DNA from: an uncultured Gemmatimonadales bacterium
Lineage (GTDB): Bacteria > Gemmatimonadota > Gemmatimonadetes > Gemmatimonadales > GWC2-71-9
Assembly (NCBI GenBank): GCA_947259405.1
Contig: CAMYLY010000001.1
Coordinates: forward strand, 1-64,000
DNA length: 64,000 bases
Direction: 5' to 3'
Made by a program: the position numbers and the translations under genes. The notes under the pieces are model-generated. The model was given only the letters and a program-made list of their open reading frames with translations. It made no database searches and was not told where the DNA came from. Each line of letters starts with the position of its first letter. Position 1 is the first letter of the stretch. This document shows positions 1,450 to 9,203 of this stretch, piece by piece.

Positions 1450-1475
1450 TGCCGCCCTGCCGCCCTGCCGCCCTA
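1450..1475. repeat. Three tandem TGCCGCCC units at a convergent gene end
   Basis: Three perfect 8-bp copies of TGCCGCCC lie at 1450-1473 between the convergent ends of the deacetylase homologue and the S9 peptidase. The peptidase TAG stop (1473-1475, read on the minus strand) abuts the array, so its mRNA 3' end reads TAG followed by GGCGGCA repeats. Confidence 0.8.
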
Positions 1476-3464
1476 GTCCGTCACTGCCTTTCGCTTCCCG
1501 AGATGCGTCTCGAACCACCGCAGGATGTGCTCGGAGACGCCCATCAACAGCTTCGGCTCGCGCGGGCCGTGCGGTGTTCGCGGGAGGATGATCATCTCAG
1601 TGGGGATCCCGCGGCGTTTCAGGGCGACGTAGAATTCCTGTCCTTGGCGTAGGGGGACGCGGTCGTCATTCTCGCCATGCACCACCTGCGTTGGCGTGGT
1701 GACGTTGGCGATCCGATACATGGCGGAGTGCTTCTCGTACGTTTCGTAGTCCTGCCAGAACTCCGCACCCATGTGTCCGACGAGATAGTCAGGGATATCG
1801 GTTGTCGTCACCATGCTGACCAGATTGGGAAGCCCCGCTCCCATGCTGGCGGCTTTGAACCGATTGGTCTTGGTCACAGCGAAGGACGTCATGTATCCGC
1901 CGTAACTCCACCCCATCAAGAGGAGACTGTCGGGATGGGCAACACCCATTTCGACCACGTGGTCTACCCCACCCATCAGATCCTCGAAGTCGCCGTATCC
2001 CCAATCGCGGACATTCGCGTATCGGAATTCCTTCCCGTAGCCGGCACTCCCTCGCGGGTTCGGGCGCAAGACCGCGTATCCTTCCTGCGCGAAGTACTGT
2101 AGCATGTAGATGCCGGGGTTTCCCGTGAACGACTGTGTGTAGACGCCCGCCGGTCCACCGTGCACGTTGAGAATCAGGGGCACGCGCCGGCCAGGTTGGT
2201 GGCCAACGGGATACGTCAACAATCCCTCGACGCGTCGTCCGTCGAACGACTCCCACGTAAGAAGTTCCGTCTTGCCCATGGTGGGTCGCGGTACCGACGC
2301 GTGCACGTCCGTGATCTTGCGCATCCCCATTCGTCCAACGTCGGCCACGTACACATCTGACGGCGTGTCGGTGTTTTGATACGTGAAGGCCACGTGGGAC
2401 GCGTCACCATCGAAGGAGAATGACCCGAACACGCCGTCCTGGCGCGTGAGGATAGTCGGGGCACTTCCATCTACCGGAAGCGACAGCAGGTGTCGTGAGG
2501 TGTGTACGGCTTCCGTGACGTAGAGATTGGAGCCATCACCAGACCAGTCGAGCAATCCGGCATTGCGGTCGGGCGTCTCGGCGAGCTTCCGAGCTTCCCC
2601 GCCGTTGGCGGGTACGACCCAGACATCGTTGAGCCCAATGGGCTCCGGCTGGCCGCCGTCTGACGAAAAGGCAATCCAACGACCGTCCGGTGAATACCGC
2701 ACGGAACCGTCGGATCCAGCTCGGCTAATGAGGGGCCGCAGTGCACCACTGTCCGCCGGGACCACGGAGATGTCCGTCTCGCCATCATTGATCGCCGGCG
2801 TGGGCTTGTGCGAGACTGCAAGCGTTGTCCCGTCTGGCGACCAATCGAATCCCGTCACCGTGAACTCACCCGACGTGATCCGCTTGGTGGAATGCGGCTT
2901 CACGGACAGGTCGATGACATAGAGGTGCGCATAGTCCCAATTTTGATCGACCAGGGTAACGTATCGCTTTTCTTTCTTCGCCTCCTTCTCCGCCTCAGTA
3001 TCCGGATCGCGCATGGTGTACGCGATCCGAGAGCCGTCCGGTGACCATTGGTATCCACCGACGCCGGGATCCGCCTCTGTCAGCCGCTCCGCCTCGCCGC
3101 CGCGAACGCGGATCCGCCAAATCTGGTTCCTTCCGGACCGTGACGATGTGAACGCCAATGACTCACCGTCCGGCGAAAACTGCGCATTCGTCGCCGATTG
3201 CTCCCCTTGCGTGAATTGCATGTTGAATGATCCATCCACGGCTGTCACCCAGATGTGTGTCCGGTACTCGGACTCCTCCCCGTCCATGATCGGCTCACGC
3301 ACCGTGTACGCGATCAGCTGGCCATCCGGAGATAGCTCCACGCCGCCCACCGCATGGAATTGCATACTGAGTGCCGGACTCCACCGGGTCGTGTCCAATT
3401 CGGTTTCTTGCGCCAACGAAGGGGTGGCCACCACCGCGGCCGCAAAGAGTCGGATGATCCGCAT
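1473..3464 (-). CDS. Secreted S9 family peptidase (prolyl oligopeptidase / acylaminoacyl-peptidase type)
   Basis: A 663-residue exported serine peptidase. The start was chosen at ATG 3464, which begins a signal peptide ending near residue 19 (TPSLAQE) and follows a GGACGAGG ribosome site; an upstream in-frame extension looks non-coding. Residues 40-390 form a WD40/Tol-like beta-propeller with repeated LSPDGQ and WSPDGS motifs. Residues 410-660 are the alpha/beta hydrolase domain with the nucleophile in GWSYGG (about Ser520), an Asp in HGENDD (about 600) and His632 in PRTPHGP. Such enzymes cleave oligopeptides or N-acyl amino acids in the periplasm. It is divergent from the exported amidohydrolase. 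Confidence 0.93.
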   Translation of the reverse strand: MRIIRLFAAAVVATPSLAQETELDTTRWSPALSMQFHAVGGVELSPDGQLIAYTVREPIMDGEESEYRTHIWVTAVDGSFNMQFTQGEQSATNAQFSPDGESLAFTSSRSGRNQIWRIRVRGGEAERLTEADPGVGGYQWSPDGSRIAYTMRDPDTEAEKEAKKEKRYVTLVDQNWDYAHLYVIDLSVKPHSTKRITSGEFTVTGFDWSPDGTTLAVSHKPTPAINDGETDISVVPADSGALRPLISRAGSDGSVRYSPDGRWIAFSSDGGQPEPIGLNDVWVVPANGGEARKLAETPDRNAGLLDWSGDGSNLYVTEAVHTSRHLLSLPVDGSAPTILTRQDGVFGSFSFDGDASHVAFTYQNTDTPSDVYVADVGRMGMRKITDVHASVPRPTMGKTELLTWESFDGRRVEGLLTYPVGHQPGRRVPLILNVHGGPAGVYTQSFTGNPGIYMLQYFAQEGYAVLRPNPRGSAGYGKEFRYANVRDWGYGDFEDLMGGVDHVVEMGVAHPDSLLLMGWSYGGYMTSFAVTKTNRFKAASMGAGLPNLVSMVTTTDIPDYLVGHMGAEFWQDYETYEKHSAMYRIANVTTPTQVVHGENDDRVPLRQGQEFYVALKRRGIPTEMIILPRTPHGPREPKLLMGVSEHILRWFETHLGKRKAVTD

Positions 3465-3615
3465 CGTAGACCTCGTCCGTAACGGGGGCAGGTAACGGAG
3501 ATACCGTTGCGGGGCGGGCGAGTCAATAAAGAACGTCGTGCCCACTCCCTGCCCACCGCTCACCGCGCTCCTCCTCCTCAACTATCTTACACGTCACCGA
3601 AATCAGGACACCTCA

Positions 3616-5736
3616 ATGCGCGCAACTCGGTACCTCTCGCTCGTTGCCGTGGCAGCGGTGACCGTCCCCGCCGCAGCACAAGACATCTCGTGGATCGATT
3701 ACACACCGCGCTCGTCGCTGGTCGTCCCAATGCACCACCGTACATCGGCCCGCTTTCCCTTCATTGACGCACATGCACACTCGCGGGTCCGCACGAAAGA
3801 GGCGTTGGACCAACTCGTGGCCGATATGGACGGCATGAACATGGGCCTGATGGTCAACCTCTCGGGCGGCACCGGCGAGCGCCTCGAGGCGACCGTCGAG
3901 CTGATGCGTGGGCACTACCCAGATCGCTTCGTCGTGTTCGCGAATCTCGACTACTCCGGAATCGATGAACCGGGCTGGGGTGAACGGGCAGCGCAGCGTT
4001 TCGCAGATGATGTCGCGAACGGAGCATCAGGACTCAAGATCTTCAAGAACCATGGTATGACGCTTCAGGATGCGTCCGGAAACCGCATCCCCACCGATGA
4101 TGCCCGCTTTGACCCCGTCTGGGCCATGGCCGGACAGCTCGGCGTTCCAGTATTGATCCACACCGCCGACCCCCATCAGTTCTGGGAGCCACATGATCAA
4201 TTCAACGAGCGCTGGTACGAGCTGGTCGAGCGACCGGGTCGAATTCGGCCCCTAGATCGTTTCCCACCATGGGAAACCCTCATGCAGGAACACTGGAACG
4301 TGATCCGGAGGCACCGGAACACGACGTTTATCTCGGCGCACCTATCCTGGCTTGGCGGAAATCTCGATCGCCTTGGAGCGCTGTTCGATTCGATGCCCAA
4401 CATGTATACCGAGTTGGGCGCCGTCCTCGCCGAGCTTGGACGCCAACCAGCTCACGCGCGCGACTTCCTGACGCGGTACCAGGATCGGGTCCTGTTTGGG
4501 AAAGACTCGTGGAATGTGGGAGAGTACCATGTATACTTCCGCGCGCTCGAGACGGGAGACGAGTACTTCGAGTACTACCGTCGCCGGCACGCCTTCTGGC
4601 GGATGTATGGAATGGCGCTGCCGGACAGCGTGCTCCGGAAGGTGTACTACGAGAACGCCATTCGGATCATCCCTGGCATCGATCGATCGCGGTTTCCTGC
4701 AGCCGCGCGCGCCCTTCCGTATGGCGACATGGCCATCCAGATCATGGCGGCGTTGAGCGCGCAAGTCGGTGAACGTGCCATTCTCCGCTACGATCCCGGC
4801 ACCTATCCAGAACTCGCTGGGCGCGTCGCAGAGGCCGGCCAGCTGGATGGCGTCTTGATTGATTTCATGCCCTACGGCTTGGTCCCGAGCTTTCCCGAGC
4901 GTCTGCAGGCGGCAGACATCTATGTCTGGCTTCCGGCCGGTCCAGACGCCGTGACGACGCCGGAGCAGATGGCCGCCCTCGGGCAGTGGTTGGACAGCGG
5001 ACGCGGACGGCAGATCCACTTTCACTGGGGCGGCGGGACGTACGGATTGGATGGCGTCCCCGGTGTACATTCACCGACCTACGACTCGATCTACGTCGCA
5101 GCGCTTGGAATCGACTACGCTGCCCTCGACCGCGTGCAGTCCCAGGCCATCGAACTCCTGCGTGCTGGTGAGGTCCATGTCACGACGCCGGCAGGAACTG
5201 ACGTGCGATTCTCGGTGGGTGACCGCCCCTTCAACAAACAAAACGGCGACGCGTCACGCACCGCCATGGCCACCGCACGCACGAGAATCGACCGAGAGAT
5301 CGAGTTTCCGGCCGGCGTCCTTCGCGTGGCCCCGATCGAGCGATCCGTCACGGGCAGACTCGTGGTGCCATGGGCCCGGTTCGGGAACGGAACGGTGAGA
5401 AATCTCCGGCTGACCTTCGAGCAGGGACGGATCGTCTCGATCACGGCCGACCAGGGCGTCAATGCGGCCCGGCAGGCCATCGCTTCGCAATCGGCGCTTC
5501 AGTTCTTTCGCGAGTTTGCGATCGGGTTCAATCCACGATTGATGAAGCCGTCGTCGGAGTCGTGGCTTCCATACTATGGCTACGGGGCCGGCGTCGTCCG
5601 GATGAGTCTTGGCAACAACGCGGAGGTGGGGGGGAGCGTCACGGGGGATGGGGTCCGTTGGTTCTTCTTTGATGATGCAACGGTCGCGGTCAACGAGCGG
5701 CCGTTGGTGGCCGAGGGTCGGCTAGAGATCCGCTGA
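3616..5736 (+). CDS. Exported amidohydrolase with M29 aminopeptidase-like C-terminal domain
   Basis: A 706-residue exported protein. The start at ATG 3616 gives a signal peptide ending in PAAAQ; an upstream start at 3538 would bury it. Residues 45-340 are an amidohydrolase-2 TIM barrel with metal-ligand motifs DAHAH (53, 55), IHTADP (His182), SAHL (His242) and FGKDSW (Asp297). Residues about 370-700 resemble the M29 (AmpS/AmpT) aminopeptidase fold: TTPAGTDVRF, VGDRPFNKQNGD, RLTFEQGRI, EFAIGFNP, RMSLGNN. By memory alignment, several M29 metal ligands appear replaced (no Glu after the AG of FPAGVLRVAP, and Arg where His precedes the SLGNN and FFFDD motifs), so this half may bind rather than cleave. 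The substrate is unknown. The next gene follows without a gap. Confidence 0.8.
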   Translation: MRATRYLSLVAVAAVTVPAAAQDISWIDYTPRSSLVVPMHHRTSARFPFIDAHAHSRVRTKEALDQLVADMDGMNMGLMVNLSGGTGERLEATVELMRGHYPDRFVVFANLDYSGIDEPGWGERAAQRFADDVANGASGLKIFKNHGMTLQDASGNRIPTDDARFDPVWAMAGQLGVPVLIHTADPHQFWEPHDQFNERWYELVERPGRIRPLDRFPPWETLMQEHWNVIRRHRNTTFISAHLSWLGGNLDRLGALFDSMPNMYTELGAVLAELGRQPAHARDFLTRYQDRVLFGKDSWNVGEYHVYFRALETGDEYFEYYRRRHAFWRMYGMALPDSVLRKVYYENAIRIIPGIDRSRFPAAARALPYGDMAIQIMAALSAQVGERAILRYDPGTYPELAGRVAEAGQLDGVLIDFMPYGLVPSFPERLQAADIYVWLPAGPDAVTTPEQMAALGQWLDSGRGRQIHFHWGGGTYGLDGVPGVHSPTYDSIYVAALGIDYAALDRVQSQAIELLRAGEVHVTTPAGTDVRFSVGDRPFNKQNGDASRTAMATARTRIDREIEFPAGVLRVAPIERSVTGRLVVPWARFGNGTVRNLRLTFEQGRIVSITADQGVNAARQAIASQSALQFFREFAIGFNPRLMKPSSESWLPYYGYGAGVVRMSLGNNAEVGGSVTGDGVRWFFFDDATVAVNERPLVAEGRLEIR

Positions 5737-8114: not shown

Positions 8115-9203
8115 ATGAAGCTGCTCGTTTTGTGTACACTCACTGCTGCATCCTCCCTCACAGCCCAGCAGATTGACGACACGTTCACCCGACAACTCGA
8201 GCAACGCATCGCCGCTGTGATGACAGAGGCACACCTCCCTGGCGTTGCGGTCGGCATCGTCCACGGTGATTCACTGGTACTTGAAATGGGATTTGGCGTC
8301 GCTGATCGCATGACGGGCCGCGGGGTCGACGGCGAGACCCTTTTCCAGATCGGGTCGCTCAGCAAGTCATTCACCAGCACACTCCTGGCGCTCCTCGTGG
8401 ACGACGGTCTGATCACGTTCCACGATCCCATCACCGATCACCTGCCAACCGAACTGCGCGTTCCAACCGCGCCGCAAGGTGCGCCGAGCGTGCGCCAGCT
8501 GGCGACACATACCTCTGGGCTGCCGCGGCAACCGCCGACCTTACGTCGCCTCCATGGGGACTATCCTGTCCTCGCCTTCTCCCATTTCGAGTTGTATCAA
8601 AGCCTGGAGGCTGCGCAACTCGAGCGGGCGCCAGGGGAGGGATTCGCTTATTCGAACTTTGGGTACAGCGTATTAGGACACATCCTCGAACGGGTCGGCG
8701 CACGGCCGTATGAACTCCTCGTGTCCGAACGCGTGTTCCGGCCTTTGCGCATGCGTTCGAGCACGGTCACCATCTGGTTGCAGTTCGAGCCGAGGTTGGC
8801 GCGACCCTACTACTGGAACAACCGCACGGGCGTGCTCGAGGACTACACACCATGGGACACGGAGGCGATGGCGCCGGCGGGCGGGATCGCGTCGACCATT
8901 CATGACTTGGCAAGATTCGTGAGCTATCAGTTTGGTGCTGATGGTGCACTGCTGGAGATCCGTGAACCACTGGTGGCACTCGGCGATGGGCTCGCGTACG
9001 GGATGGGCTGGTTCGTCCTCGAGCTCGAAGGTGTTGGAACTGTGATCAACCACGGTGGCGAGGTCGATGGATACACGTCCTATCTGGGATTCTCGCCGGA
9101 CCACCGCCTCGGCGTGATCATCCTGACCAACGCCGGCGACGGCCCGCTAGAGCCTGTTGCGAATTGGATCTTCTTGGATATGGTCGGTCGACTCGGCTTC
9201 TGA
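8115..9203 (+). CDS. Exported serine hydrolase of the beta-lactamase class C / PBP4* family
   Basis: A 362-residue protein with a short signal peptide (MKLLVLCTLTAASSLTAQ). The penicillin-binding fold is shown by the SxxK nucleophile in IGSLSKSFTS (Ser81, Lys84), the YxN motif in FAYSNFGY, and an HGG motif (INHGGEVDG) in place of KTG. Members are D-amino peptidases, esterases or beta-lactam-like hydrolases acting in the periplasm; the substrate cannot be assigned. There is no C-terminal lipocalin or extra domain, and the length is normal for the single-domain form. Confidence 0.92.
   Translation: MKLLVLCTLTAASSLTAQQIDDTFTRQLEQRIAAVMTEAHLPGVAVGIVHGDSLVLEMGFGVADRMTGRGVDGETLFQIGSLSKSFTSTLLALLVDDGLITFHDPITDHLPTELRVPTAPQGAPSVRQLATHTSGLPRQPPTLRRLHGDYPVLAFSHFELYQSLEAAQLERAPGEGFAYSNFGYSVLGHILERVGARPYELLVSERVFRPLRMRSSTVTIWLQFEPRLARPYYWNNRTGVLEDYTPWDTEAMAPAGGIASTIHDLARFVSYQFGADGALLEIREPLVALGDGLAYGMGWFVLELEGVGTVINHGGEVDGYTSYLGFSPDHRLGVIILTNAGDGPLEPVANWIFLDMVGRLGF

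Follow-up and report, generated by a model that had tools for sequence, protein, structure and literature searches.

Locus and gene structure

Within the window, by which we mean the whole stretch of 64,000 nucleotides analysed here, we examined a gene of the forward strand at positions 3616..5736. This gene is a single uninterrupted reading frame that runs from an ATG at 3616, with AGGA on its 5' side, to a stop codon at 5736, and it encodes a protein of 706 aa in which a signal peptide is followed by an Amidohydro_2 barrel (residues ~40-356) and an M29-fold domain (residues ~365-706), both complete. By inspection of the sequence, positions 3616..3681 (+) encode a Sec signal peptide, MRATRYLSLVAVAAVTVPAAAQ, with predicted cleavage between MRATRYLSLVAVAAVTVPAAAQ and the following D, in keeping with the export proposed in a first-pass annotation of this DNA. 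A divergently transcribed gene for an exported S9 prolyl-oligopeptidase-type peptidase adjoins the fused gene (window 1473-3581, minus strand), and a PF00144 beta-lactamase-family gene with a signal-like N-terminus lies ~2.4 kb downstream (window 8115-9203, plus strand).

The source genome is an incomplete assembly (61% complete), and we found no second genome with an Amidohydro_2 and M29-fold fusion, either among 298 Gemmatimonadota genomes or among 102 genomes of the same family. Both facts would fit a fusion created by assembly or by a reading-frame error, an explanation that we consider very unlikely. The join is in frame and falls at the exact domain ends, with 0 N bases; there is no internal signal peptide between the two halves; and the codon usage of each half matches that of the neighbouring genes. 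The fusion point is clean, as close stand-alone amidohydrolase orthologs stop at ...IIPGIDxxLFPx, where the M29-fold domain starts. Comparable fusions with other partners also occur in 15 further sequences from independent genomes. We judged a chimeric assembly unlikely given the clean in-frame join, the codon usage and the recurrence of such fusions. The first-pass annotation could name no standard family with such a domain order, and we likewise found no standard family in which Amidohydro_2 is followed by M29.

The amidohydrolase half

The N-terminal half (3733..4683, +) is a COG2159-type TIM barrel that matches Pfam PF04909 (Amidohydro_2) at residues 97-351 (E 1.4e-13; 51.7 bits, above the cut-off of 26.4). 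A PDB sequence search with this half gave no useful match. We performed Foldseek with the N half of a full-length AF2 model, the only part of that model used, and retrieved ACMSD, IDCase and PDC hydrolase. Stand-alone homologs of the amidohydrolase half were present in 171 of the 298 Gemmatimonadota genomes (best identity 66%), and the same genome encodes a stand-alone paralog that is 50% identical to it (G000:C7:89557-90558).

The ligand set of the family (HxH, His, His, Asp) is represented in full by H53 and H55 (3772..3780, +), H182 (4159..4161, +), H242 (4339..4341, +) and D297 in GKDSW (4504..4506, +). Across 40 homologs, conservation of each of the four histidines is 97% or higher. D297, taken as the Asp ligand typical of the family, is present and stands outside this list of conserved positions, 2 of the 40 rows ending before it. 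These metal ligands are shared with the COG2159 proteins (ACMSD, IDCase and 2-pyrone-4,6-dicarboxylate hydrolase), whereas the M29-fold extension was found on no other homolog that we retrieved. Judged by sequence, the amidohydrolase half is an ordinary exported member of Amidohydro_2 with an intact metal site, as had been proposed.

The C-terminal half has an M29 fold

The C-terminal module (4708..5733, +) matches Pfam Peptidase_M29 (PF02073) at residues 559-638 with an E value of 9.8e-6 (25-26 bits), just under the gathering cut-off of 27 bits. This match is not a chance one, because of 27 C-half relatives 26 match the same model (best 2.7e-10) and tblastn retrieved a Listeria protein with the annotation "M29 family aminopeptidase T" (2e-8). 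An AF2 model of the C half, built with 27 natural sequences as input, had a pLDDT of 94.4 and a pTM of 0.91. Foldseek of this model against the PDB gave full-length matches to NicX (7e-20), PepS (1e-15), AmpT (9e-15) and AmpS (3e-13); the full-length matches were exclusively to the M29 superfamily, and all others were partial. By its predicted fold, the C half is a member of the M29 superfamily, which agrees with its earlier description as M29-like.

The M29 metal site is replaced by other conserved residues

In an M29 enzyme, each of six residues, EEHYHD, is essential (PMC7023490). We aligned these positions across the window family, 3 bona fide M29 sequences, 5 NicX-like proteins and two further groups of exported proteins, and assessed conservation in an enlarged set of 72 module sequences (residue numbers below are those of the module). 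Of the canonical ligands Glu, Glu, His, His and Asp, the window module keeps the second Glu alone, and the catalytic Tyr is lost. The first position, Glu in AmpT and AmpS, is Val in the window protein (5317..5319, +) and A, V or S in 72/72 sequences. The second, Glu277 (5512..5514, +), is E in 72/72. The third, a His in M29, is Arg306 (5599..5601, +), with R in 72/72 and in 25/25 family members of the first alignment. Arg325 (5656..5658, +) occupies the region of the fifth position, also a His in M29, and is R in 71/71 and in 24/25 family members of the first alignment. Members of the window family have N, F or L in place of the Asp of the M29 HxD, which follows the Arg325 position. The EEHYHD motif thus reads V or A, E, R, a residue other than Y, R, and N, F or L, bearing out the earlier suggestion that most metal ligands have been lost.

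It could be argued that the ligands were misaligned and that the C half is a normal metallo-aminopeptidase of family M29, a reading to which the sub-threshold Pfam match lends something. Against this, in the 27 members examined no lost Glu or His ligand turns up within three columns of its own position, and a profile alignment to AmpT places a non-acidic residue at Glu250; we regard the idea as scarcely credible. The first-pass annotation had named two outcomes that would overturn its reading, a C-terminal half without structural match to M29 and ligands that prove conserved once properly aligned; neither occurred.

Twelve residues are invariant in all 72 module sequences (R109, H112, H114, W115, E207, R214, R276, E277, Y297, Y300, R306 and E314), and R325 and W326 are invariant in 71/71. 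H112, H114 and W115 belong to an HFHW motif (residues 112-115; 5017..5028, +), and this HxHW pattern is absent from the canonical M29 and NicX-like proteins that we aligned. HxHW lies in the N-terminal subdomain, while Arg214, Arg276, Glu277, Tyr297, Tyr300, Arg306, Glu314 and Arg325 lie in the C-terminal one. The motif stands at the end of a strand, beside the strand-loop that in NicX carries L104-H105, residues that contact the substrate (PMC7910607), and we infer that it faces the cleft. On these alignments, the module has lost the metal centre of M29 and NicX and carries a fixed set of residues instead.

Two other exported groups were noted in the course of this work. The first (L041-L045) comes from the same Gemmatimonadota family and has ~31% identity to the window family; it has HxHW, Glu277 and Arg306 in common with it and lacks Arg325. 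The second (L046-L052, L115 and L116) is another M29-like lineage in which the first Glu is mostly kept and the other ligands have been lost differently; ligands were checked in L046-L049, L051 and L052, and L115 and L116 were assigned from their position in the tree.

Rebuilding of the site, not decay, looks likely because the new residues are invariant; a drifting dead site would not give such fixation. The module might still be a catalytically dead relic that serves only in folding, oligomerisation or surface attachment, and the loss of the canonical ligands and the dimeric state of M29 enzymes (PMC7023490) are compatible with this. However, at two of the former ligand positions a new residue has become fixed instead of drifting, and the first of the exported cousin groups retains HxHW, Glu277 and Arg306. 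We therefore hold a dead relic to be improbable.

Comparison with M29 peptidases and NicX

With the M29 enzymes (AmpS, AmpT and PepS; PF02073), the module shares the fold, the two-subdomain layout, the second metal-ligand Glu and the landmarks LPxGxxxxAPxExSVxG and xxEFAxGxNP. It differs from them in lacking four of the five metal ligands and the catalytic Tyr, in having HxHW and four Arg as new residues, in its length (~350 aa versus ~410 aa for M29) and in being sometimes fused to hydrolases. M29 enzymes are described as cytosolic (PMC7023490), whereas the module is exported. On its ligands, we rejected assignment as a canonical M29 aminopeptidase.

NicX, a 2,5-dihydroxypyridine 5,6-dioxygenase, is the best structural match of the module and of similar length. 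It uses H265, S302, H318 and D320 (PMC7910607), of which the iron ligands H265, H318 and D320 correspond in the module to R306, R325 and N, F or L, and the module family, unlike NicX, is exported. A NicX-type dioxygenase was rejected, all three of its His/His/Asp ligands being gone. Its defining residues place the module outside both the M29 peptidases and the NicX dioxygenases. In the open-licence literature that we searched, we found no papers on M29 fusions or M29 pseudoenzymes.

Distribution, export and recurrent fusions

The C-terminal half is not confined to this protein: it belongs to a widespread exported family with invariant residues of its own and several fusion partners. In Gemmatimonadota and Acidobacteriota the module usually occurs by itself, as an exported protein or a lipoprotein. 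In nearly all stand-alone members it is immediately preceded by a signal peptide or a lipoprotein signal, and in fused members the signal stands solely ahead of the partner domain, with none internal; export is thus predicted in nearly every member examined. We found no constant operon partner for the stand-alone module, whose neighbours are miscellaneous, and because of this the module seems also to work without a fused hydrolase. In three Acidobacteriota (L033, L035 and L136), the gene immediately upstream of the stand-alone module is of the TonB-dependent-receptor type. On a Gemmatimonadaceae contig (L037), a beta-lactamase-family gene lies 28 bp downstream of a module gene whose 5' end is cut off by the contig.

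In a tree of the 72 modules, all 16 fusions fell in one clade of 35 members (100/100 support), and the other clade had 0/37, all of its members being stand-alone. On well-supported branches, the tree forces at least 7 changes between the fused and stand-alone states. The module is always C-terminal, and its partners are a class A beta-lactamase (11 fusions), a class C-like beta-lactamase with DUF3471 (3), an M19 dipeptidase (1) and Amidohydro_2 (1, the window protein alone). The M19 fusion (L036) comes from a KSB1 genome; its partner matches Pfam PF01244 (7.6e-118; 393.7 bits), and by eye it has the HND, ME, AH, SH and SDFD motifs, so that the M19 metal ligands are represented. An Acidobacterium protein (L038) joins the module to PF00144 and DUF3471 (1.1e-71). 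We searched 257 genomes of the order of L038, Bryobacterales, for more fusions and found 11 of class A type, with three PF00144 and DUF3471 fusions including L038.

The class A partners match PF13354 with E values down to 2.8e-56, and all six of the fusions scanned passed the NCBIfam bla_class_A cut-off. Across the 11 fused class A domains (L152, L157, L158 and L169-L176), SxxK, SDN and KTG are invariant. These motifs and the bla_class_A score are thus shared with class A beta-lactamases; the fused proteins differ from them in that the ExxLN omega-loop motif is not recognisable, that the same region holds an insert of ~25-30 aa and that an M29-fold module follows at the C-terminus. One stand-alone module (L166:1492-2727) has an N-terminus that resembles the remains of a fused beta-lactamase, with the signal peptide and last residues kept and the middle missing; either a genuine loss of the domain or a fault of the assembly could explain this.

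In the tree, the window module falls among stand-alone modules of Acidobacteriota (identity at most 55%), away from the main Gemmatimonadota set. The amidohydrolase fusion therefore looks independent, and from the tree it may have followed horizontal transfer.

Proposed function

We propose that the window protein is a secreted two-domain protein in which an intact metal-dependent Amidohydro_2 domain is joined to an M29-fold module that would no longer be an M29 aminopeptidase. Arginines in place of metal-binding histidines would form a pocket for anions within the former substrate cleft, and the module could there capture a small carboxylate-bearing ligand of a peptide-, muropeptide- or lactam-like kind. 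Fusion would keep this ligand beside a hydrolase that makes or consumes it. That the conserved Arg, Glu, Tyr and His residues share one pocket is suggested by the alignment to M29 and NicX. On balance, we give close to an even chance to the interpretation that the cleft of this exported M29-fold module has passed from metal-dependent hydrolysis to the recognition of an anionic ligand that the module and its partner hydrolases have in common. Because the module recurs on several unrelated enzymes that cleave amides, beta-lactamases among them, it probably marks an extracytoplasmic function that has yet to be described.

The first-pass annotation, whose interpretation our results support in part, suggested a binding or regulatory role; this is one of two readings that we take seriously, and new catalysis is the other, because the invariance equals in strictness that of enzyme active sites. 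The module could be a second enzyme that precedes or follows the fused hydrolase in a short pathway, its chemistry either metal-free (His/Glu/Arg/Tyr) or dependent on a relocated metal. Although the old site is gone, HxHW and Glu277/Glu314 could hold a different metal site, and the module, earlier called possibly metal-free, may thus still bind a metal. The 72 sequences are strictly invariant at His, Glu, Arg and Tyr positions, consecutive enzymes are often joined by fusion, and NicX is an earlier change of chemistry on the same fold (PMC7910607). On the other hand, a canonical metal-ligand set is missing, and the unrelated partners point to a shared ligand as much as to a shared pathway. We consider a second enzyme a real possibility, short of an even chance. 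Our preference for binding or targeting puts it slightly ahead of new catalysis, and the data do not separate the two.

The broadest form of the argument is offered more speculatively, and we would sooner doubt than assert it: that this is a new exported M29-fold family whose active or binding site is entirely new, with new catalytic chemistry, and which is repeatedly attached to beta-lactamases, dipeptidases and amidohydrolases, which would point to a common class of extracytoplasmic substrates in Acidobacteriota and Gemmatimonadota (for example, D-amino-acid peptides, muropeptides or lactams).

The solved M29-fold structures that we found are cytosolic-type metallo-aminopeptidases and one ring-opening dioxygenase; an exported branch with different, strictly conserved residues would add a third functional state to the fold. 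An automatic label of "aminopeptidase" or "beta-lactamase" misses half of such proteins. The recurrent fusions to class A, class C-like, M19 and amidohydrolase domains are a testable clue to an extracytoplasmic role of the module in Acidobacteriota and Gemmatimonadota.
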